34,503 nt of DNA from an uncultured Nitrospira sp. GTDB lineage: Bacteria > Nitrospirota > Nitrospiria > Nitrospirales > Nitrospiraceae. Location of the stretch: contig CABVRW010000041.1 of the NCBI GenBank assembly GCA_902500785.1, forward strand, positions 1-34,503, given 5' to 3'. The notes under the pieces were generated by a model. The model ran no database searches. It was not told where the DNA came from and was given only the letters and a program-made list of their open reading frames with translations. Shown one piece after another: positions 3,987 through 19,229 of the stretch; the stretch's first letter is position 1, and the number at the start of each line of letters is the position of its first letter. Both the position numbers and the translations under genes were made by a program.

Positions 3987-4246
3987 CGCTACCTCACTGC
4001 TGACGACATGAGCTATGAGAGAACCCTTCCTTTGGACAATTCAGTGCCATTTCCAGATATTCAGCGAAGACCGTGGTACAACCCGTTCCCGCTCGATTGT
4101 GAGCAGCCCGTAACTCAGCTGTCCCACCCATATCGACAGGGAGTCGCGTCTCGTGACTCGGGCAGGCATCCCCGGCAACAGCGACACGGCATCCTCGACT
4201 TGTCCTCTGCCCCTGAAGGCCCTCCGCCACTAGGCCTTCCAGAAGA

Positions 4247-4275
4247 TTGACTTCACGCCGGCAGGTGAGTACCAT
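4247..4275 (+). promoter_or_regulatory. Candidate sigma-70-type promoter of the thiamine operon
   Basis: TTGACT (4247-4252) and TACCAT (4270-4275) are separated by 17 bases. Transcription would start near 4282, directly before the riboswitch aptamer, which is the expected arrangement. Confidence 0.5.
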
Positions 4276-4285
4276 CATCCTCGAC

Positions 4286-4371
4286 AGCTAGGGGTGCCAT
4301 ACGGCTGAGAGTCCGACCCATTCGGACGACCCTCACAACCTGACCTGGGTAATACCAGCGTAGGGAAGCGA
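4286..4371 (+). ncRNA. TPP riboswitch (THI element)
   Basis: The leader of thiC contains the conserved TPP aptamer in order: AGGGGTGCC at 4290-4298, CTGAGAG at 4305-4311, ACCCT at about 4329-4333, ACAACCTGACCTGGGTAATACC region at about 4335-4355, and AGCGTAGGGA at 4357-4366. The 5' AGGGG pairs with the closing strand, and the CTGAGA and GGGTAATACCAGCG blocks are the pyrimidine- and pyrophosphate-sensing helices known for this class. It should bind thiamine pyrophosphate and lower expression of the downstream genes. It is followed immediately by an expression platform with alternative hairpins. Confidence 0.95.
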
Positions 4372-4398
4372 CCGATCTACTGGCTTCGTGATCGCTTC

Positions 4399-4430
4399 AA
4401 GCCGCACCCAAGCTGGATGCGGCTTTTTTA
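4399..4430 (+). terminator. Riboswitch-controlled intrinsic terminator
   Basis: AAGCCGCA (4399-4406) pairs with TGCGGCTT (4418-4425), and the stem runs into a T-tract, giving a classic Rho-independent terminator. Just upstream GAAGCGA (4365-4371), at the end of the aptamer, can pair with TCGCTTC (4392-4398), so the two states can be linked. I infer control by transcription termination when TPP is bound. Confidence 0.85.
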
Positions 4431-4459
4431 TTTGGCCGGCAGACGCTCACCTTCGATGA

Positions 4460-6394
<1,935 letters not shown>

Positions 6395-9515: not shown

Positions 9516-9529
9516 CGAGCGTTATTTTT
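9507..9529. terminator. Intrinsic terminator between convergent genes
   Basis: CGCTC (9507-9511) and GAGCG (9517-9521) form a short stem with loop CTAAC, followed by TTATTTTT (9522-9529). It overlaps the ygfZ stop codon and would end the plus-strand transcript. The stem is only 5 bp, so strength is uncertain. Confidence 0.5.
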
Positions 9530-10004
9530 CAGGGTTTCGTACGGCCGACACGGCTGACGCGAACCCGAGCAGGCTCTTCCGCTCTTCATCGTCCAAGGCC
9601 AGCAACAAATGCGTCTCTTCGGCGTGCATCAGCCGGAGGCTTAAGAAGGGCTCCTCCCGTCGCTTTTCACGATTGTCCCACATGGCGTCGATGACTTGTA
9701 CCTTGTCCAACTGTCCGACGGACAGGACATCATAGCGAAAATAGGAGTCCCCGATGACGATATCGAAGATCACATGGCCGGCCGTCAAGAGCACCAGGTT
9801 AAACCGTCCTTGATCCTCGTACCCTTCAGGCAAGAACTTGTTGATGTGGCATCGCGCGATCTTACGATCACCAAGAGCCGCCCGAAACTTGACCTGCAGC
9901 GCGTCGTAATCGATCTGAAGCGCCTTTTCGTCGGCATTGGTCGCGCCGACCGCCGCTTCCTTCGCCTTTTCAAAGATCTCGTCCACTGATAACAACCCTG
10001 CCAT
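9522..10004 (-). CDS. Hypothetical cytoplasmic protein
   Basis: I do not recognise this 160-aa protein. It has no signal peptide or membrane segment. The N-terminal 35 residues are helical and charged (VDEIFEKAKEAAVGATNADEKALQIDYDALQVKF). They are followed by alternating strands (FNLVLLTAGHVIFDIVIGDSYFRYDVLSVGQLDKVQVID) and a region resembling a beta-sandwich with RREEPFLSLRLMHAEETHLLLALDDEERKSLLGF. The last segment recalls PH-like or YcxB-like folds, but this is only an impression. AAGGAG about 9 bases before the ATG gives a strong start. It converges on ygfZ. Confidence 0.7.
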   Translation of the reverse strand: MAGLLSVDEIFEKAKEAAVGATNADEKALQIDYDALQVKFRAALGDRKIARCHINKFLPEGYEDQGRFNLVLLTAGHVIFDIVIGDSYFRYDVLSVGQLDKVQVIDAMWDNREKRREEPFLSLRLMHAEETHLLLALDDEERKSLLGFASAVSAVRNPEK

Positions 10005-10871: not shown

Positions 10872-11228
10872 TCACGGCTCGCCTTGCCTGCCGGAGCGCC
10901 TCGCTGCAGAGTCGGCCTGCAGCAGGTCTCCTTCCAGCGCCGCCTTGAGCAATTGTGCGGTATTGCACACGCGCAACTTCTTCATCATGTTCGATCGGTG
11001 CGTATCGGCCGTCTTCATGCTGATACTCAGCTGCTCTGCAATACTTCGATTGGTATAGCCGTCCCAGATCAGGCGAAGAATTTCCAACTCGCGCGGCGTG
11101 AGGTCTTCCGGCCTCCGCTTTGTGACGGCCGCGGGAGAATCGTTCGGCGCTGGACGTTGTCTCCCGACGGGACCATTCATCGCCACGTCCCGATTTCCTG
11201 CTCCGCTGTCTTTCTTTTCCGCTAACAT
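10872..11228 (-). CDS. Orphan LuxR-type HTH regulator, cassette copy A
   Basis: This 118-aa DNA-binding protein has a GerE/LuxR helix-turn-helix (about residues 38-105: LTPRELEILRLIWDGYTNRSIAEQLSISMKTADTHRSNMMKKLRV) and a short charged N-terminal tail instead of a receiver domain. The TNRSIAEQL and MKTADTHRSNMMKKL helices match the family. It is therefore a stand-alone LuxR-type HTH protein, controlled by something other than phosphorylation of its own receiver. AGGAGG lies 6 bases before the ATG. A homologue (13169-13489) shares about three quarters of identical residues over 69 positions. The gene follows the small gene 11285-11530 by 56 bases, probably as an operon. Confidence 0.88.
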   Translation of the reverse strand: MLAEKKDSGAGNRDVAMNGPVGRQRPAPNDSPAAVTKRRPEDLTPRELEILRLIWDGYTNRSIAEQLSISMKTADTHRSNMMKKLRVCNTAQLLKAALEGDLLQADSAARRSGRQGEP

Positions 11229-11284
11229 CGGATTCCTCCTTCCTCACCCTCTCAACTCCCACAGCTTCCTGAAGGTCCGACCTT

Positions 11285-11530
11285 CTAGTTTTCCCGTGCC
11301 ATGGCAGGCTTGGACGTGTCCCACAGGCGTTGCAGGTAGCCCAGAACGGCCGTAATGGCTTGCGTCCGCGGCTGCCAGGAGCCCTGCGCGTTCGCGTTTA
11401 ATTCAACCCAACACCCATCGACCTTCTGACGAACAACCAACCGCTCAAACATGCCGTGAGTGGCCGGTTGAATGGCCAACAGGTACTCCTGTTCTTCTCT
11501 GTCCTTGAGTAAGAACCCCTTCACCATCAT
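11285..11530 (-). CDS. Small protein of unknown function, cassette copy A
   Basis: This 81-aa protein is unrecognised, but it has a clear paralogue at 13522-13782. Shared positions include GFLL near the N-terminus, an I-x-P strand, G-x-F, VR, DG-x-WV, a Trp followed by RT, and a C-terminal VL-x-YLQ-x-L helix. The pattern suggests a small beta-sheet with a C-terminal helix. Strong AAAGGAGG about 7 bases before the ATG supports the start. Both copies precede an orphan LuxR-type regulator gene on the same strand, so the two are likely one functional unit, for example a sensor or partner of the regulator (inference). Confidence 0.75.
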   Translation of the reverse strand: MMVKGFLLKDREEQEYLLAIQPATHGMFERLVVRQKVDGCWVELNANAQGSWQPRTQAITAVLGYLQRLWDTSKPAMAREN

Positions 11531-11975
11531 GGATCGTTCCTCCTTTTACACACACTCAAGAATATCGACCGTCTTAACCGTCCGTTCTTCTCAACGACCG
11601 CTCTCTCGAACAAACTCCCCAAGGTCTTTACCCTACGAGGCCTGACACCCACTACATCAAGACCTATGCCAAGCAGGCTTATATTAATTATTTAATATAT
11701 AAAACAATGCATTACGATGTATATCCACACTCGACGAGGCTGGTCGCCGGTCGTGCCATGAGAGACAATCGTGTGTCACCGGCTCGTTGTGAGACAGCTT
11801 TATGAGACTCTCTGGGGCGGTAGGCGGCAGGATGCCGCCCGGTTCGATGAAAGGGGTCAAACGGTCCGGAGCGGCCAGGTAAGGAAGCAGAATCGGCTCA
11901 CGTCATGGAGACGACTAGCCACAAAGCCGAACGGGGAACCGCAGGAATGTAGGAGCAACAACCCTCAGCCGATGA
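11531..11975. other. Gene-free stretch with AT-rich promoter region and a hairpin
   Basis: I see no convincing gene in these 445 bases. An AT-rich block (about 11678-11725) contains a dyad, ATATTAA (11681-11687) and TTAATAT (11692-11698). It also holds a minus-strand promoter candidate: TTGTTT (11702-11707) and TATAAG (11678-11683) with 18-base spacing, about 140 bases before the start at 11530. Further right, GGCGGCA (11823-11829) and TGCCGCC (11833-11839) form a 7-bp hairpin with no T-tract. Confidence 0.5.
11678..11707 (-). promoter_or_regulatory. Candidate promoter of cassette copy A
   Basis: On the minus strand TTGTTT (11707-11702) and TATAAG (11683-11678) are 18 bases apart in a strikingly AT-rich block. 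The block stands out from the GC-rich surroundings and points at the gene starting at 11530. Confidence 0.4.
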
Positions 11976-12383
11976 TTACTCGGCACAGGCGCAACCTTCA
12001 AGCGGACGAGTGGCAATAGACGTGAGATTATTGGTGTACTGGGTAAACCCCTTCCGACGACCATAGAGACGCAGAAGGCAGCCGTCGCTTTTGCGCTGCA
12101 CAAAGAAACTATAGTCGGCGCCGGACGGCGAGGAGACACCGAAGGGACGGGGGCCAAGCGAACCTGTCGCGAGCACCACCGTGGTATTGACTGCCAGGCG
12201 ATGCGCGATATCAGCTTGTTCGGCTTCCTCCGTGAGGATCGATTCGAGCTGTTCCTGCATCTTTTGCTTGCAGGATTCATCCGCCAAGGTTGTGACCTGG
12301 GCGACCGTGGTGCAGCCGGACAGGAGGAAGGCCCCTAGTCCCAACCACCCCGCCATACCCGACCTTCGTTTCAAAGCAGCCAT
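11976..12383 (-). CDS. Putative lipoprotein
   Basis: This predicted lipoprotein is about 135 aa long. The N-terminus MAALKRRSGMAGWLGLGAFLLSGC has a basic n-region, a hydrophobic core and the lipobox LLSGC. AGGAGG lies 6 bases before the ATG at 12383, which excludes longer frames reaching 12443. The mature part has a helical acidic segment (CKQKMQEQLESILTEEAEQADIAHRLA) and then short strands (ADYSFFVQRKSDGCLLRLYGRR), with several extra cysteines. I recognise no domain. It lies between the two regulator cassettes, on the same strand. Confidence 0.65.
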   Translation of the reverse strand: MAALKRRSGMAGWLGLGAFLLSGCTTVAQVTTLADESCKQKMQEQLESILTEEAEQADIAHRLAVNTTVVLATGSLGPRPFGVSSPSGADYSFFVQRKSDGCLLRLYGRRKGFTQYTNNLTSIATRPLEGCACAE

Positions 12384-12627
12384 CCGGCCCCTCCTGATTA
12401 TCGGCAATGAATAGGCAGATCTGATCCGATTCTCGCGGTCCAAGGTTCAACGACACATCCCGGCGGACCGTACCCAGAATGCCAGAAGCATGTCAATTTG
12501 CGGCGTCTGGCGCGATGATCGAGTTGGTCCATAGCCGGCTAGTTCGGAACATTCAAATCAAAACGGGTGGGCAATGCGGACGGCGTAGGGGAGGAAACGA
12601 GAGCAGATGGAATGCTTTTTCGCCCCC

Positions 12628-13020
12628 CTACCCCATCACGGGCGAGCCATGGTGATGAATCATCAACCACTCATCGCCGATGCGTTCAAAGAGATTGGTG
12701 GCCAGCACGCGAGTTTCTACCGGTTGGTCGTCCTGACGACTGGTGAGGTGTTCGGTACAGATGACCCAGCCCAGATCACCGGCGACCTGAATCTGCACGT
12801 CGGACAGTTCGAACTTCATGGAGAAGGTATTGTTGAAGATCAGCACCCAGGAATCGCGCACCGCCGGCCAGTCGCTGCGGAGGCTCCAGCCGGGATGAAT
12901 GCAGGTGACGTATTCGAGATGCGCCCACACTTTGTCCATCTGGAGCATGTCCAGACTTTCAAAGGCGGCATAAAAGGCGAGATTGGCGCGGGTAATTTCT
13001 TCGATGCGTTGTTCGACCAC
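12628..13020 (-). CDS. SnoaL/NTF2-like protein (DUF4440-type)
   Basis: This 130-aa protein has the cone-shaped NTF2-like fold pattern. It opens with helices (EEITRANLAFYAAFESLDMLQMDKVW) with a first domain face, then LEYVTCIHPGWSLRSDWPAVRDSW, a beta region (FELSDVQIQVAGDLGWVICTEHLTSR), and last strands ending in ERIGDEWLMIHHHGSPVM. The conserved C-terminal WLMIHHHGS pattern is typical of the SnoaL_3/DUF4440 group. Members range from enzymes to stress proteins, so the substrate is unknown. The start is GTG with CAGGAG 6 bases upstream. It is flanked by the lipoprotein and the second LuxR-type gene on the same strand. Confidence 0.85.
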   Translation of the reverse strand: MVEQRIEEITRANLAFYAAFESLDMLQMDKVWAHLEYVTCIHPGWSLRSDWPAVRDSWVLIFNNTFSMKFELSDVQIQVAGDLGWVICTEHLTSRQDDQPVETRVLATNLFERIGDEWLMIHHHGSPVMG

Positions 13021-13130
13021 GGCTCGCTCCTGCGACGGTGCGGCATTTTACTGCAAACACCCTCGCCGGCGCGAGCCTCATTTCACTGCGAGGGGGCGAA
13101 CTCGTGGGGAGCTATGGCGCCGCCGAAAGT

Positions 13131-13167
13131 GGGACTCCTCCCGAGAGCGCAAGCCGCCGCGAGTCCC
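13131..13167. repeat. Inverted repeat after the copy B regulator gene
   Basis: GGGACTC (13131-13137) and GAGTCCC (13161-13167) form a 7-bp stem immediately beyond the stop of the minus-strand LuxR-type gene. There is no T-tract on that strand, so any terminator role is unproven. Confidence 0.35.
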
Positions 13168-13168
13168 A

Positions 13169-13489
13169 TCAGCCCGCCTGAGTAGCGAGCAGCCCCTCTT
13201 CCAGCGCCGTCTTCAAGAGTTGTGCGATGTTGGACACTCGCAGCTTTTTCATCATATTAGCGCGATGCGCCTCTGCGGTCTTGATGCTGATATGGAGTTG
13301 TTCTGCGATCGTGCGGTTCGTCAGGCCCGCCCAAACCAACTGCAAGATTTGCTGCTCTCGAGGGGTCAGATCTTCAGGACGCCGTTTGGTCGCCAGACTG
13401 CCATCCGACGTCTGGCCGATTCTCACCGCTGCCCCCCGCACATTCGCCTCATGATCCATCCGCGAGACATTGCTCTGCTCATTCCACAT
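13169..13489 (-). CDS. Orphan LuxR-type HTH regulator, cassette copy B
   Basis: This 106-aa protein has a GerE/LuxR HTH (LTPREQQILQLVWAGLTNRTIAEQLHISIKTAEAHRANMMKKLRV) and a short N-terminal tail, with no receiver. I place the start at 13489, where AAGGAG sits 8 bases upstream. An in-frame ATG at 13525 overlaps the stop of the preceding gene but has no ribosome site. It is a paralogue of the protein at 10872-11228, sharing the N-terminal TKRRPEDLTPRE block and the C-terminal AQLLK-x-ALE block. Each copy lies behind its own small partner gene. Target genes are unknown. Confidence 0.88.
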   Translation of the reverse strand: MWNEQSNVSRMDHEANVRGAAVRIGQTSDGSLATKRRPEDLTPREQQILQLVWAGLTNRTIAEQLHISIKTAEAHRANMMKKLRVSNIAQLLKTALEEGLLATQAG

Positions 13490-13521
13490 GGTGATATCTC
13501 CTTGGTTCAAGTTCACGTCCT

Positions 13522-13782
13522 TCATTTATTCACGTATTCACGCGCCTGGTTCGAAAACCCTGCTGCGATCGTCGACAACCCTTGCAAGTATGTCAGAACG
13601 ACTCCGACAGCGCCGGTCCGGTCGGCCCATGTTCGGTGCGGCACTCGGGTCATATCCACCCAATTTCCATCAATCTGCTCCCGTACGGCCGGTTGACCGA
13701 ACAGGCCAAGAGACGACGGGGCAATGGTTACTAACACCTCCGCATCCGAGCCGTTTGAAAGTAAGAACCCCACGACATTCAT
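13522..13782 (-). CDS. Small protein of unknown function, cassette copy B
   Basis: This 86-aa protein is the paralogue of the one at 11285-11530. It conserves GFLL, an I-x-P strand, G-x-F, VR, DG-x-WV, a Trp followed by RT, and a C-terminal VLTYLQGL helix. Its C-terminus is longer (NQAREYVNK). A weaker ribosome site (GAGG) lies about 6 bases before the ATG. It is followed within 35 bases by the LuxR-type gene, as in copy A, where the gap is 56 bases. The two proteins are more divergent from each other than the two regulators are. Confidence 0.75.
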   Translation of the reverse strand: MNVVGFLLSNGSDAEVLVTIAPSSLGLFGQPAVREQIDGNWVDMTRVPHRTWADRTGAVGVVLTYLQGLSTIAAGFSNQAREYVNK

Positions 13783-14178
13783 TTGTGCCCTCGTGTAGCT
13801 GCCACCCTTTTTGGTTCTTCACCTTCGTTGGCTTCTGGCAATCATGAGATACTCATATCAAGGATCGTGCCATCGGTGGTGTCGAGAGAGGCTGCATGAA
13901 ATACTAGGGACTTACGCCGAAGGCCACACACTCCATTCCTTCTGCGCGTCAAGGAGATGGCACAATCTGTTGTGTCACACTTGTGCCAAATGACCCAGCG
14001 CACAGTCTCATTGTGTCGCAGTAACAAGCCCCTCACCGTATCTATGCCTGCGTAGCTGGTGACGATGCGACCGCACACGGGGAAACCAATGCGGTGTGGC
14101 GAGTCCTGTCTCAAGGAAGATCTATCTGACAGCTAACGGCAGGGATACGTGCCTGCCCCATGTCGTGGCGTGGCCGGT
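13783..14178. other. Gene-free stretch with nested dyads before cassette copy B
   Basis: I see no convincing gene in these 396 bases. They contain a dyad ATGAG-ATA-CTCAT (13844-13856) and a larger one, GGCACAA (13959-13965) with TTGTGCC (13981-13987). The latter encloses GTGTCACAC, and the -24-like element TGGCAC is read on both strands here. The stretch separates the copy B small gene from the end of the sigma-54 regulator gene. Confidence 0.5.
13959..13987. promoter_or_regulatory. Candidate operator dyad
   Basis: GGCACAA (13959-13965) and TTGTGCC (13981-13987) are a perfect 7-bp inverted repeat around a 15-base centre that itself contains GTGTCACAC. On the minus strand this reads TTGGCACAAGTGTGACAC, where the TTGGCAC half of a sigma-54 promoter is complete but the -12 half is poor (TGAC in place of TTGC). 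It lies about 180 bases upstream of the copy B cassette. Confidence 0.35.
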
Positions 14179-15573
14179 TCACCGAAGCGGCTCATCAATT
14201 CCATCGCCCGGTACGAGCACCTCGTATTCAGCCAAGCGGCGATAGAAGGTTCGTCGACTCATCCCCAACAATCGTGCCGCCTCCGAGCGATTGCCGCCCG
14301 CTTGCTGGATCGCTCCTACCATCCGAGCCCGTTCGTCGTGGCGTTGGAGGGGAACATAGGTCGCCTCCGGCGCTGAATGCCGAATCTCCGGAGGGAGATC
14401 CTCCACATGCACGACAGTGCCCCTACAATGAATCAGGGTCGACTCCACCACACTCTTCAACTCTCGCACGTTGCCGGGCCATGAATGGCTGCTGAGGACT
14501 TGCAGCGCTTCCGAACTCACCTGCAGCACGGGCTTCTCCATGACGGAACGGAACTGCCCGAGAAAGGCATGCACCAGCAACGGAATGTCGGTCGGTCGGT
14601 CTCGAAGCGGGGCGAGTCGGAGGCGCGCCACCTTGATGCGATACAACAGGTCTCGTCTGAAGGTTCCTTTCTCGACATCCTCCGCAAGGTTATGGTGGGT
14701 GGCCACCACCACTCGCACATCGACCTTACGCGGCTTGGATTCTCCCAACCTGGTCACCTCCCGTTCCTGTAGGACGCGCAGAAGGCTTGTCTGCACGGCG
14801 GGAGAAATATCACCGATCTCATCCAGAAAAATGGTTCCGCCCTGCGCCGCCTCAAATACCCCTTTTTGATTGTCGATCGCACCGGTGAAGGCCCCCTTCT
14901 TGTGACCGAATAGCTGGCTACCAAGAAGCGAATCGGTGAACCCCGCGCAATTGACGGCCAAGAATGTGTGGGCCGCGCGCCGGCTGGATAGATGAATCGC
15001 GCGGGCCACCAACTCCTTTCCCGTTCCGGTTTCTCCCTCGATCAACACGGTCGCATCCACCGCCGCAATCTTCTGGATCTCTTCGTAGAGCACCACCATC
15101 GCCGGACTCCGGCCGATCAAATCATGAAACTTGCCGTGATCGGCCAACTGCGATTGCAAGGCCTGCGCTTGATCTTCCGCCGCAAAGCGCCGCCGCACGC
15201 TCTCCACCCATTGTTCGGCAATCGTCAGGCGCAGTTTCAAGAACTCCACACCGACAGGCTTCACCAAATAGTCGTTGACCCCCGATTGGAGCGCCGTGCG
15301 CAATGATTCCGGAGAGTCATGTCCGGTAATCATGACGATGACACACCGCTCGCCGCCTGGGCTCGATCGAATGGTCCGGCACACCTGCAGTCCATCCATT
15401 CCACCTCCACGCAACTCCCAATCGAGCAACACGAGTTCATAGGGTCGTCGTCCATAGGCTTCCCATGCGGACTCGCCGTCCGCACAAGCCGTCACCTCGT
15501 GGCCACGCGCCCCGATGACCTGTTCGAACAGACCTCGGATATCGATGTGATCTTCCACCAGCAAGACACGCAT
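14179..15573 (-). CDS. Sigma-54-dependent response regulator (NtrC/AtoC type)
   Basis: This 464-aa transcription activator works with sigma-54 RNA polymerase and is switched by phosphorylation. The N-terminal receiver has the acid pocket ED at residues 7-8, phospho-acceptor D51, T83 and K105. The AAA+ domain has Walker A GETGTGKE (180-187), the sigma-54 contact loop GAFTGA (227-232) and Walker B with FLDEIG (249-254). The Fis-type HTH is at the C-terminus (NRSEAARLLGMSRRTFYRRLAEY). The gene follows the hybrid kinase gene by 14 bases and is very likely cotranscribed, so the kinase is its probable partner. Target promoters are not evident. Confidence 0.95.
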   Translation of the reverse strand: MRVLLVEDHIDIRGLFEQVIGARGHEVTACADGESAWEAYGRRPYELVLLDWELRGGGMDGLQVCRTIRSSPGGERCVIVMITGHDSPESLRTALQSGVNDYLVKPVGVEFLKLRLTIAEQWVESVRRRFAAEDQAQALQSQLADHGKFHDLIGRSPAMVVLYEEIQKIAAVDATVLIEGETGTGKELVARAIHLSSRRAAHTFLAVNCAGFTDSLLGSQLFGHKKGAFTGAIDNQKGVFEAAQGGTIFLDEIGDISPAVQTSLLRVLQEREVTRLGESKPRKVDVRVVVATHHNLAEDVEKGTFRRDLLYRIKVARLRLAPLRDRPTDIPLLVHAFLGQFRSVMEKPVLQVSSEALQVLSSHSWPGNVRELKSVVESTLIHCRGTVVHVEDLPPEIRHSAPEATYVPLQRHDERARMVGAIQQAGGNRSEAARLLGMSRRTFYRRLAEYEVLVPGDGIDEPLR

Positions 15574-15587
15574 GGCGTGCTCAGTCC

Positions 15588-18500
15588 TTACACATAGACC
15601 AATTGCAGCCGCTCCAGAAACCGGCTGAGCGCATCGAACGCCTCACGCGCACCGGGGCCGTCCATCCGGATCGCCGCCGCCTCCAATGCCCATCCATAGG
15701 CGCTGATCGCTTCAAGACCATAGGTTCCCCCGGCGCCCTTGAGGCCATGACCGATTTCACGTAGCGTGTCAAAATCCTCGCGGCCTAACGCATCCGTAAT
15801 CTGGGCAAGTTCCTGCCGCCGATGCTCCAAGAACCCCGGCATGAGCGATTCAAATTCTCCGCTGACCTGCAACACGACGGTCCCGGTCGTGGGGTCGGAA
15901 GACGGTTGAGCGATCGGAGCCGCAGGTTGGACATACACCTGAATCGCTTCCAACAAGCGGGCCTTTCGAATGGGCTTGGTCAAATGCGTCGTGCACCCCG
16001 CTTCAAGACTCCGCTGCACTTCACTTTGCAAGGCATTGGCAGTCAGCGCCAGAATCGGCACCGGGCTCCGACCACGGGCCTGCTCCCAGGCCCGAATGGC
16101 CTTCGTCGCCGCATACCCGTCCATCACGGGCATCTGAATATCCATCAAGACCAGATCGTACGATCCCCGCAGAAACATCTCGACGGCGGCTTGGCCGTTA
16201 GATGCCGTCTCAACTTGATGGGGCGACGACTTAAAATAAAACTCCATCATGCGGCGATTGTCGGCAAAATCTTCAGCCAACAGGATCTTCAGGCCGGGCA
16301 TTCCTGCCGTCGGCTCCTGCGTCTGAGGCCGCACTCCATTGTTTCCGGCCAACGCCGCCTTGCCGATCACCGCCATCATGCCGTTGAAGAGGTCCGATCG
16401 TCGAAAGGGCTTCGTGAGATACCGCACCACTCCGCATTCGCGGGCTCGGGCCTGGTCCCCGGCGCGCCGTTCCGAGGTCAGCATGATGATGGCCACCCCC
16501 GCCAGGCTGGGGGTGCGTGAGACCGTATCCGCCACTTGCCATCCACTGAGTTTCGGCATACGCACATCCAAGATGATCAACCGGTACGGCACTCCGGTCT
16601 GCGCCGCGCGGCGCAGCTCGAGCAGCGCCTCCTCGCCCCCAGGCGCCTCCGAAGTGGGGATACCCCATCCCGCCAGTGTTTCCCGCACAATCAGACGGTT
16701 GGTCGTATTGTCGTCTACGATCAAGGTCCGCAATCCGGCCACCTGCTCCCACTGCACCGGAGGAACTGCCGAGGCCGGGTGAACATGCACGGCAAACTTG
16801 GCAGTAAAGCTGAACGTGCTGCCCGCGCCCAGTTCGCTGTCGACCCACATCTTGCCGCCCATCCGCTCCACCAATCGCCGGGAGATCGTCAGCCCCAGAC
16901 CGGTGCCGCTGTATGGCCGAGTCATCGAAGAATCCACCTGGGTAAAGCGCTCGAAGATAGCGGCCAATTTATCTTCGGGAATGCCGATGCCGGTGTCTCG
17001 CACGGTGAACAAGATGTTCCCGGGGCCATCCGCTCGCGGATTACGTTCAACACGCAACACAACTTCTCCCTGATCAGTGAACTTGATGGCATTGCCCAGC
17101 AAGTTCAGCAGCACTTGCCGGAGACGATTCGGATCGCCCACCAGCGATGTGGGCACGTCCGGCTGGATCTGGTAGGCCAACTCCAAGTTTTTCTCGCCGG
17201 CGCGCACCGCGACCAGTTCGGCCGCCCGCTGCACCAGGTCGTTGAGATCGAAGTCCACCACATCCAGATCCAGATGTCCGGCTTCGATTTTCGACAAGTC
17301 GAGGACATCATTGATCAGACTCAGCAGGTTGCTCCCGGCATCACGAAAAATTTGCACATACTCCCGTTGATCCTCATTCAAAGGCGTTTCGGACAACAGA
17401 TCCGCCATGCCGACGATCGCGTTCATCGGGGTTCGGATCTCATGGCTCATGGTCGCCAGGAAGTCGCTCTTGGCTCGGTTGGCGAACTCGGCCGCCTCCT
17501 TCGCCGTCATCAGGGCATGTTCAGCCTCTCGTCGCTGCTTCGCTTCATAGGATAAGGTCACCAGATTCCCGATCGAGGTGGCAAACTGCGCTTCCTCGGT
17601 GGTCCACGTATGGGGCTCTCCGACGCGTTCATGACAAACCACGCCGGCTAATCGACCGCCGAAGAAAATCGGCACGTCCAGCAACGAGGCGATTCCTAGC
17701 GCCTTGAGATACGGCTGCATCTCGCTTGTACGCGGATCACCGGCGACGTCATGCGCATCGACCACTTGCTCCTGCAGCAGCTCGGCGAAATAGCGCGGGT
17801 ACTCGGCCACGTTCAACCGTGGTCCCCGCGAATGCCGCGCTTGGCCCTGCTCATACAGTTCCACACAATCCAGAGCCGTCCCGGTTCGGTCCAGCAGCCA
17901 GACACTCGCGCGATCCACCGCCAGCACCCGTGCCGAGGTTTGCATCAGTTCTTCCAGCGCCGCCGGCCAGTCACCCGAAGCGATATGCTGGCTTTTTGTC
18001 AGCCGCATCAATGCATGCTGATGGGCTTGAAGCACGGATTGGCTCCGGCGCAACGCGGCTTCTGCCTCTGTCCGCCTGGTGATGTCCAGTACGAGCGTCA
18101 GCAGGCAGTCCTCCCCGCCGATGCAGACCGGTTCGACATTGAACAATCCGTGCCGCACCTCGCCGGATTTCGTGCGGAATTCCTTTTCCAAATGTCGCAG
18201 GAACCCGTCACGCCGCAGCGTCTCGGCCAACTGCCGGCGATCCTCCGGATGTACCCAGATGCCGATATCGAGCGACGACATGCCGATCAGCTCCTCGCGA
18301 GAAAATCCGGACACCCGCACGAACGCCTCATTGACGTCGAGTACCCGACCGTCCTCAAGGCGGCTGATCGACATCCCGGCCGGACTGCTCCGAAACGCCT
18401 TGGAAAAGCGCTCTTCGCTCTCGCGTCGCGCCTCCTCGGCCTGTTGTCTCGACGTGACATCCAGATGAATGCCCGACATCCGAATCATCCGCCCTTGCTC

Positions 18501-19229
18501 ATCACACACTCCCGCACCCAGTGCGGAGATCCAGCGATAAGACCCGTCCTGATGCCGGAGACGATGGTCCAGACGATATTGCTTGGTATATCCTTTCCGA
18601 AACAGGGTCAGGGTCGCGAGAGCCCGCGCGCGATCGTCGGGGTGGAGACGCGCCTCCCAGTCGGCGAAGGTCGACCCGATCTCTGACTCGGCGCATCCAA
18701 GCTGGCTTTTCCAGCGGGGTGAATAATAGGCCGTCGTGCTCTCCAAGTCCCATTCCCAGACCCCCGCATCCGCGCCTTCCACCGCCAGTTCAAACCGCTC
18801 TCGACTTTCGCGCAACTCGGCCTCTATCCGCCGCTGCTCAGCCAACTGAGCCGTCAGTCGGTCGTTGGCGTAAACCACATCCTGGGTCTGTTCGGCTACT
18901 CGTCGTTCTAAACGGGTATTGGCTGAACGAAGCGCCGCCTCGGCCTCGCGCCGCTGTGCGAGCAGATAGGCCGCGCCCCATATCATGACTGTGCCCAGGG
19001 TCCGATTGACCATCGCCGTGGTCAGTTCCACGCCGGGAGGCGCAAGCCCCAATGCCGCTACAAGCAGGGCCGTGCAGACCAAGGCATACCGTACAGCTGC
19101 CGTAGGCAAGGCCAGGCGTGAACTCAACCAGAGGGGAAACAGGTAGAGGGGCCAGATCAAATAGCCAACCGGAATCGCCACATCCAGGACAAAGACTCCG
19201 GCGGTCACCAGACAAATAGCGGTCAGCAT
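15588..19229 (-). CDS. Hybrid sensor histidine kinase with HPt
   Basis: This 1213-aa inner-membrane kinase feeds a phosphorelay. In order I see: about four N-terminal transmembrane helices (1-92), a coiled coil, PAS domains (about 140-260 and 265-390), a GAF domain (about 405-560), a HisKA dimerisation domain with H596 in SHEIRTPMN, a HATPase domain with the N box and DTGIGIP, receiver 1 with D888, receiver 2 with D1030, and a C-terminal HPt with H1161. All key residues are present. The first 95 residues resemble a membrane sensor region, but I cannot name its ligand. GAGGAG lies about 12 bases before the ATG. The regulator gene follows 14 bases downstream. Confidence 0.95.
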   Translation of the reverse strand: MLTAICLVTAGVFVLDVAIPVGYLIWPLYLFPLWLSSRLALPTAAVRYALVCTALLVAALGLAPPGVELTTAMVNRTLGTVMIWGAAYLLAQRREAEAALRSANTRLERRVAEQTQDVVYANDRLTAQLAEQRRIEAELRESRERFELAVEGADAGVWEWDLESTTAYYSPRWKSQLGCAESEIGSTFADWEARLHPDDRARALATLTLFRKGYTKQYRLDHRLRHQDGSYRWISALGAGVCDEQGRMIRMSGIHLDVTSRQQAEEARRESEERFSKAFRSSPAGMSISRLEDGRVLDVNEAFVRVSGFSREELIGMSSLDIGIWVHPEDRRQLAETLRRDGFLRHLEKEFRTKSGEVRHGLFNVEPVCIGGEDCLLTLVLDITRRTEAEAALRRSQSVLQAHQHALMRLTKSQHIASGDWPAALEELMQTSARVLAVDRASVWLLDRTGTALDCVELYEQGQARHSRGPRLNVAEYPRYFAELLQEQVVDAHDVAGDPRTSEMQPYLKALGIASLLDVPIFFGGRLAGVVCHERVGEPHTWTTEEAQFATSIGNLVTLSYEAKQRREAEHALMTAKEAAEFANRAKSDFLATMSHEIRTPMNAIVGMADLLSETPLNEDQREYVQIFRDAGSNLLSLINDVLDLSKIEAGHLDLDVVDFDLNDLVQRAAELVAVRAGEKNLELAYQIQPDVPTSLVGDPNRLRQVLLNLLGNAIKFTDQGEVVLRVERNPRADGPGNILFTVRDTGIGIPEDKLAAIFERFTQVDSSMTRPYSGTGLGLTISRRLVERMGGKMWVDSELGAGSTFSFTAKFAVHVHPASAVPPVQWEQVAGLRTLIVDDNTTNRLIVRETLAGWGIPTSEAPGGEEALLELRRAAQTGVPYRLIILDVRMPKLSGWQVADTVSRTPSLAGVAIIMLTSERRAGDQARARECGVVRYLTKPFRRSDLFNGMMAVIGKAALAGNNGVRPQTQEPTAGMPGLKILLAEDFADNRRMMEFYFKSSPHQVETASNGQAAVEMFLRGSYDLVLMDIQMPVMDGYAATKAIRAWEQARGRSPVPILALTANALQSEVQRSLEAGCTTHLTKPIRKARLLEAIQVYVQPAAPIAQPSSDPTTGTVVLQVSGEFESLMPGFLEHRRQELAQITDALGREDFDTLREIGHGLKGAGGTYGLEAISAYGWALEAAAIRMDGPGAREAFDALSRFLERLQLVYV

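Follow-up and report, generated by a model that had tools for sequence, protein, structure and literature searches.

Two copies of a cassette, each composed of a gene for a small protein (sm) and a gene for a LuxR-type regulator (lux), lie on a 34,503 bp contig of an uncultured Nitrospira sp. (CABVRW010000041.1; the whole stretch analyzed is called the window below). Is each copy a self-contained signalling pair answering its own cue, as an earlier note on this DNA had proposed, or do both belong to one circuit? Nitrospira drive nitrite oxidation. Sigma-54-dependent regulators near the nxr genes have been reported in a Nitrospira transcriptome paper (PMC6606698). Our literature searches retrieved no description of this locus, nor of the combination of a LuxR-type regulator, sigma-54 and a small protein.

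Organization and Evolution of the Duplicated Cassette

Table 1. Genes and predicted regulatory elements of the locus, in the order of transcription.
Feature	Position	Strand	Basis
Hybrid sensor kinase (PAS, GAF, HisKA, HATPase, two receivers, Hpt)	15588..19229	-	Pfam scan; orthologous in genus loci
NtrC-type enhancer-binding activator (receiver, sigma-54 AAA+, Fis HTH with helix SRRTF)	14179..15573	-	Pfam; orthologues; helix covaries with half-site
Putative activator site B, TGGCACA-N4-TGACACA-N6-TGTGCCA	13958..13988	-	Genome search; genus alignment
Conserved block GCGTAAGTCCCTAGTATTT between activator site and promoter B	13899..13917	-	Alignment; unique in own genome
Predicted sigma-54 promoter B, TGGCACGATCCTTGAT	13857..13872	-	Pattern scans; genus alignment
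smB, small protein, no named family	13522..13782	-	ORF; pairwise similarity; dN/dS
luxB, LuxR-type HTH-only regulator	13169..13489	-	GerE match; PDB profile matches
SnoaL-like protein, between the cassettes	12628..13020	-	SnoaL_3 match; dN/dS
Putative lipoprotein	11976..12383	-	Sequence; orthologues
Putative composite activator site A (TGTCTCA, TGACACA, TGGCACG)	11752..11796	-	Genus array
Predicted sigma-54 promoter A, TGGCATAGGTCTTGAT	11656..11671	-	Pattern scans; genus alignment
Conserved leader block CGTAGGGTAAAGACCTTGGGGA	11616..11637	-	Alignment; unique in own genome
smA, small protein, no named family, predicted beta4-alpha fold	11285..11530	-	ORF; similarity; AlphaFold2; dN/dS
luxA, LuxR-type HTH-only regulator	10872..11228	-	GerE match; orthologues

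The four cassette genes, described earlier as lying on one strand with the small gene ahead of the regulator, were all confirmed in the list of open reading frames (Table 1). The duplication is genuine, both gene types being pairwise similar between copies A and B. The smA and smB products align without gaps with 28 of 69 residues identical (41%) and 42 of 69 similar (E = 8e-19 for the pair), while luxA and luxB share 51 of 68 residues (75%); the 51 identical HTH residues counted previously were found again, over an aligned length of 68 and not 69. Median dN/dS across the genus orthologues is 0.045 for smA, 0.19 for smB, 0.21 for luxA and 0.15 for luxB, low values indicating that all four genes are genuinely coding; smA members are strongly constrained. 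For the activator and the SnoaL-like protein the corresponding medians are 0.046 and 0.013. Chance likeness between the copies and misplaced start codons were both rejected on the pairwise alignments, an open-frame check and dN/dS. The frame of the putative lipoprotein opens at 12443, and its likely start is an ATG with a ribosome-binding site at 12383.

Most loci of the genus have the order hybrid kinase, activator, smB, luxB, SnoaL-like protein, lipoprotein, smA and luxA, and in most of them the activator orthologues are ~90% identical. Both copies are also present in a neighbouring genus (g139, genome G301). The previous statement that the small gene always comes first applies to Nitrospira and a single neighbouring genus; the wider family departs from it. 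In gene trees smA and smB form separate clades, as do luxA and luxB, and single-copy genes group with the B side, the support for the sm fork being modest; this topology is consistent with the pair having been duplicated as a unit and copies having been lost later. The SnoaL-like protein is nearly invariant in the genus, and it adjoins small-protein relatives in other genera too.

Losses were observed in several genomes. Three of them (G143, G244 and G139) have a single small-protein gene, and in G143 it is smA that is absent and the gene in the B position that is retained. smB is deleted in G112, where luxB and the promoter are both kept, and it is broken in G258, G179, G307 and G301 (neighbouring genus), with luxB still open in each. 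smA is intact in every two-cassette locus read. The sole copy found in G314 is truncated, its N-terminus and the promoter region both being missing.

LuxR-Type Regulators Without a Receiver

The products of luxA and luxB match GerE (PF00196) with 68.5 and 70.3 bits against a curated cut-off of 23.5, and their domain matches are confined to GerE and related HTH models. The Response_reg receiver gave no Pfam match in either protein, and their open frames of just 118–123 aa leave no space for one, so their earlier description as receiver-less was correct. In PDB profile matches the luxB HTH resembles the C-terminal domains of SsrB, EsrB and FixJ; it is like that of NarL/FixJ-family response regulators, whose N-terminal receiver luxA and luxB lack.

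The HTH-only architecture is that of GerE and ClbR, which belong to the autonomous effector-domain LuxR regulators, defined as binding DNA directly and regulating with neither ligand nor phosphorylation (PMC7364221); their control is expected at the level of synthesis. Since luxA and luxB have no input domain, their activity is probably set by the amount made, and by analogy with GerE/ClbR-type regulators they are probably controlled by synthesis. Unlike GerE and ClbR, they are duplicated together with a small-protein gene behind putative sigma-54 promoters. Among their NCBIfam matches is PedR of cyanobacteria (NF052366), a small LuxR-type regulator inactivated through thioredoxin (PMC4361706), but the scores of 48.2 and 48.9 bits lie under the curated cut-off of 120. 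Contig C45 of the same genome (L038, 1462–1752, minus strand) has a further HTH-only LuxR gene, which shares 65% identity with luxA over 68 aa; no adjacent small-protein gene was recognised there.

Predicted Sigma-54 Promoters and Activator Sites

A -24/-12 pattern, TGGCAYRNNNNTTGMW, has two matches in the window, each upstream of an sm gene (0.07 expected). Its narrow form, TGGCAYRNNNCTTGAT, has three matches in the 3.9 Mb genome, two of them in the window and the third on contig C56, against none in the control. Another promoter form occurs twice in the genome, once as promoter B and once in front of an HTH-only LuxR gene on contig C1. Promoters A and B are predicted to be of near-consensus sigma-54 type. 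In their elements, TGGCAC/T-N5-TTGAT, the -24 GG and the spacing fit, but the -12 has GA and not GC; it reads TTGAT instead of TTGCA, and this form is conserved across the genus. RpoN is encoded by a single gene copy in the genome. Around the cassettes, scans for sigma-70 promoters and terminators turned up about as many matches as in shuffles.

Pfam matches to Sigma54_activat, a receiver and a Fis-type HTH were all found in the window activator, as expected for the NtrC type. Putative TGRCACA half-sites lie ~80–86 bp upstream of both promoters. Site B, whose genus form is TGRCACA-N4-TGRCACA-N6-TGYGYCA, has itself as the sole match in its own genome allowing up to two mismatches. Site A is a regularly spaced array of the type TGTCTCA-18-TGRCACA-20-TGRCACA in the genus loci examined, its TGTCTCA site being generally missing from the smB promoter region. 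At a dS of ~1, the genus loci have kept both the promoters and the activator sites. The earlier claim of different upstream regions stands for the arrangement of the elements only, the promoter type and the half-site being the same in both.

At 37 of the 41 related loci that carry an activator gene, a sigma-54 promoter stands no more than 450 bp behind that gene (0.06 expected from mononucleotide shuffles). The recognition helix SRRTF pairs with TGRCACA sites, and SRATF/SRATL with TGTCTCA sites; the counts of 15:1 against 1:24 (C1 paralogue included) give a Fisher value of 3.9e-9, which overstates the case because the loci come from related, phylogenetically non-independent lineages, and shared phylogeny could account for helix and half-site alike. 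The correspondence is directly testable. These observations make the neighbouring hybrid kinase and NtrC-type activator the likely drivers of both cassettes. PrsK/PrsR (TIGR02915; PMC1569441) likewise combines a kinase with an NtrC-type activator and a motif some 60–90 bp upstream of a sigma-54 promoter. However, the window activator scores 332.4 with the PrsR model, below the cut-off of 502.6, and PrsK/PrsR serves PEP-CTERM genes, whereas the window activator probably acts on regulator cassettes.

A second module built in the same way is present in this genome on contig C1 (L071, 112000–122000, at ~4000–6300 of that region): it contains a PAS-type sigma-54 activator, TGTCTC/GAGACA sites, the promoter TGGCACAAACCTTGAA and the HTH-only LuxR gene, and no small-protein gene was found in it. 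Its activator belongs to the SRATF/SRATL–TGTCTCA group. Promoter A has both kinds of site, so it may be read by both activators; the TGTCTCA site could bring the second one to smA, which bears on the earlier suggestion that the copies may respond to different cues. The conserved blocks near the two promoters (Table 1) are candidate sites that possibly serve as LuxR operators. In a genome-wide search both blocks matched only themselves, yielding no further candidate LuxR target sites.

The Small-Protein Family

Neither smA nor smB belongs to a Pfam or NCBIfam family, and UspA1_rep was rejected as a candidate on a match of only 16 bits, under the cut-off. A plasmid search with smA gave no match. 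In a sample of the phylum smA matched strongly within its own genus and weakly outside it, and in a search of genome contigs the sole relative was a Nitrospira MAG. With a profile built from 33 members, relatives were detected in 70 of the 175 Nitrospiraceae genomes, belonging to 6 of 22 genera; among the matches listed for a 395-genome phylum sample, all were in Nitrospiraceae.

For smA a beta-beta-beta-beta-alpha fold was predicted (AlphaFold2, mean pLDDT 82.6), and the same order of elements was predicted for a g2-type relative (pLDDT 73.4); homology of the two groups is backed by profile comparison (probability 96.2). A PDB profile search with the small protein reached a best E of 0.11, and a fold search with its predicted structure gave no significant match among solved structures. 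The weak likeness of the modelled fold to PC4- and PUR-type folds, which with whirly-like folds form a nucleic-acid-binding beta4-alpha group (Foldseek E 2.3 for the T5 PC4 homologue; Z 4.2 for PURA, the best Z of any chain being 4.8), may serve as no more than a lead.

An automatic tally placed small-protein relatives near a LuxR-type regulator or receiver match in ~34 of 40 further loci, which are not independent and among which the activator flag of L126–L130, resting on receiver-domain similarity, is to be discounted. The expected association with LuxR-type genes is recurrent, but it takes several gene orders and some relatives have no LuxR gene nearby. In other genera the small protein may stand between an activator and a zinc-ribbon-like protein followed by a full NarL-type response regulator, after a NarL-type response regulator, or with a response regulator on one side and a receiver-only protein on the other, close to SnoaL. 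Elsewhere it accompanies SnoaL/lipoprotein genes (g7) or an XrtA-associated ATPase-like gene (g3) with no regulator nearby; a LuxR gene is also absent from the vicinity of the relative in one g4 genome. The small zinc-ribbon-like protein (MRCKRCGG...CVNCGA) lies between the small protein and the NarL-type response regulator in L103–L117 and similar loci, and the one tested had no Pfam match. In L131 and L132, which contain a small-protein relative, a sigma-54 promoter was seen upstream of an XrtA/PEP-CTERM-associated ATPase-like gene (below cut-off).

A Probable Sigma-54 Switch With Two Outputs

The matching predicted sigma-54 promoters and the adjoining probable activator point to two outputs of one switch and not to two self-standing sensors, a reading to which we assign a probability of roughly 0.7. 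The hybrid kinase would sense a signal and pass phosphate via its receivers and Hpt to the activator, which would bind the TGRCACA half-sites and turn on smB-luxB and smA-luxA; the LuxR proteins would then act on further targets. The small protein, co-produced with the LuxR protein, would most likely tune the LuxR-type regulator or the activator, this role being the most conjectural of the steps. Gene order, conservation of promoters and sites, selection and covariation are the parts of the wiring that can be read from the sequences themselves. What emerges is a concrete circuit plan that names the promoters and activator sites and has two duplicated outputs.

The retention of promoter and luxB in G112 after loss of smB speaks for the switch, as do the relatives in other genera that have an activator as well as a NarL-type response regulator beside them. 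On the other side we count the -12 TTGAT, the lack of further LuxR target sites and the missing promoter region in G314.

What remains of the signalling pair envisaged earlier is the conserved duplication and the recurrence of relatives beside LuxR/NarL-type regulators; a self-contained pair with its own cue is not supported, in view of the shared sigma-54 promoters, the loss of smB with luxB kept, the LuxR-less relatives and the C1 LuxR gene. A narrower version, which we consider somewhat unlikely, has the small protein binding the HTH-only LuxR protein as a detachable input or dimer partner. The two genes lie side by side in every intact Nitrospira cassette that was read and were duplicated together, smA is under strong constraint, and the ~34 of 40 tally also fits direct partnership. 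But luxB stays open in several genomes with smB lost or broken, the neighbouring regulator in other genera carries its own receiver, the g7, g3 and one g4 relatives have no LuxR gene nearby, and the C1 HTH-only regulator does without a small protein.

The regulator-free relatives beside SnoaL-like/lipoprotein genes (g7) or the XrtA/PEP-CTERM-associated ATPase-like gene (g3) would suit a plain effector that is co-expressed but does not regulate, one related to the envelope or to exopolysaccharide for instance; against this stands the recurrent link to transcription regulators in several architectures, and we consider it, too, somewhat unlikely. Feedback of the small protein on the activator or kinase, with the LuxR gene as a separate output of the same promoter, is unlikely: in g1, g139 and g2 the small protein does track the activator and a sigma-54 promoter, with a LuxR-type partner that differs in kind and in gene order, but no sigma-54 activator adjoins the g7 relative, the L126–L130 loci or L119.

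A bolder and unlikely reading may also be put forward: the small protein would found a new Nitrospiraceae-only family of regulator partners tuning LuxR/NarL-type regulators or sigma-54 activators, and the smA promoter would integrate the TGRCACA and TGTCTCA activators into one LuxR output. Whatever its role, a small-protein family without a name has been brought to light, with strongly constrained smA members. Elsewhere in the window, a 160-aa protein without a Pfam family (9522–10004) is 86–96% identical among genus relatives.
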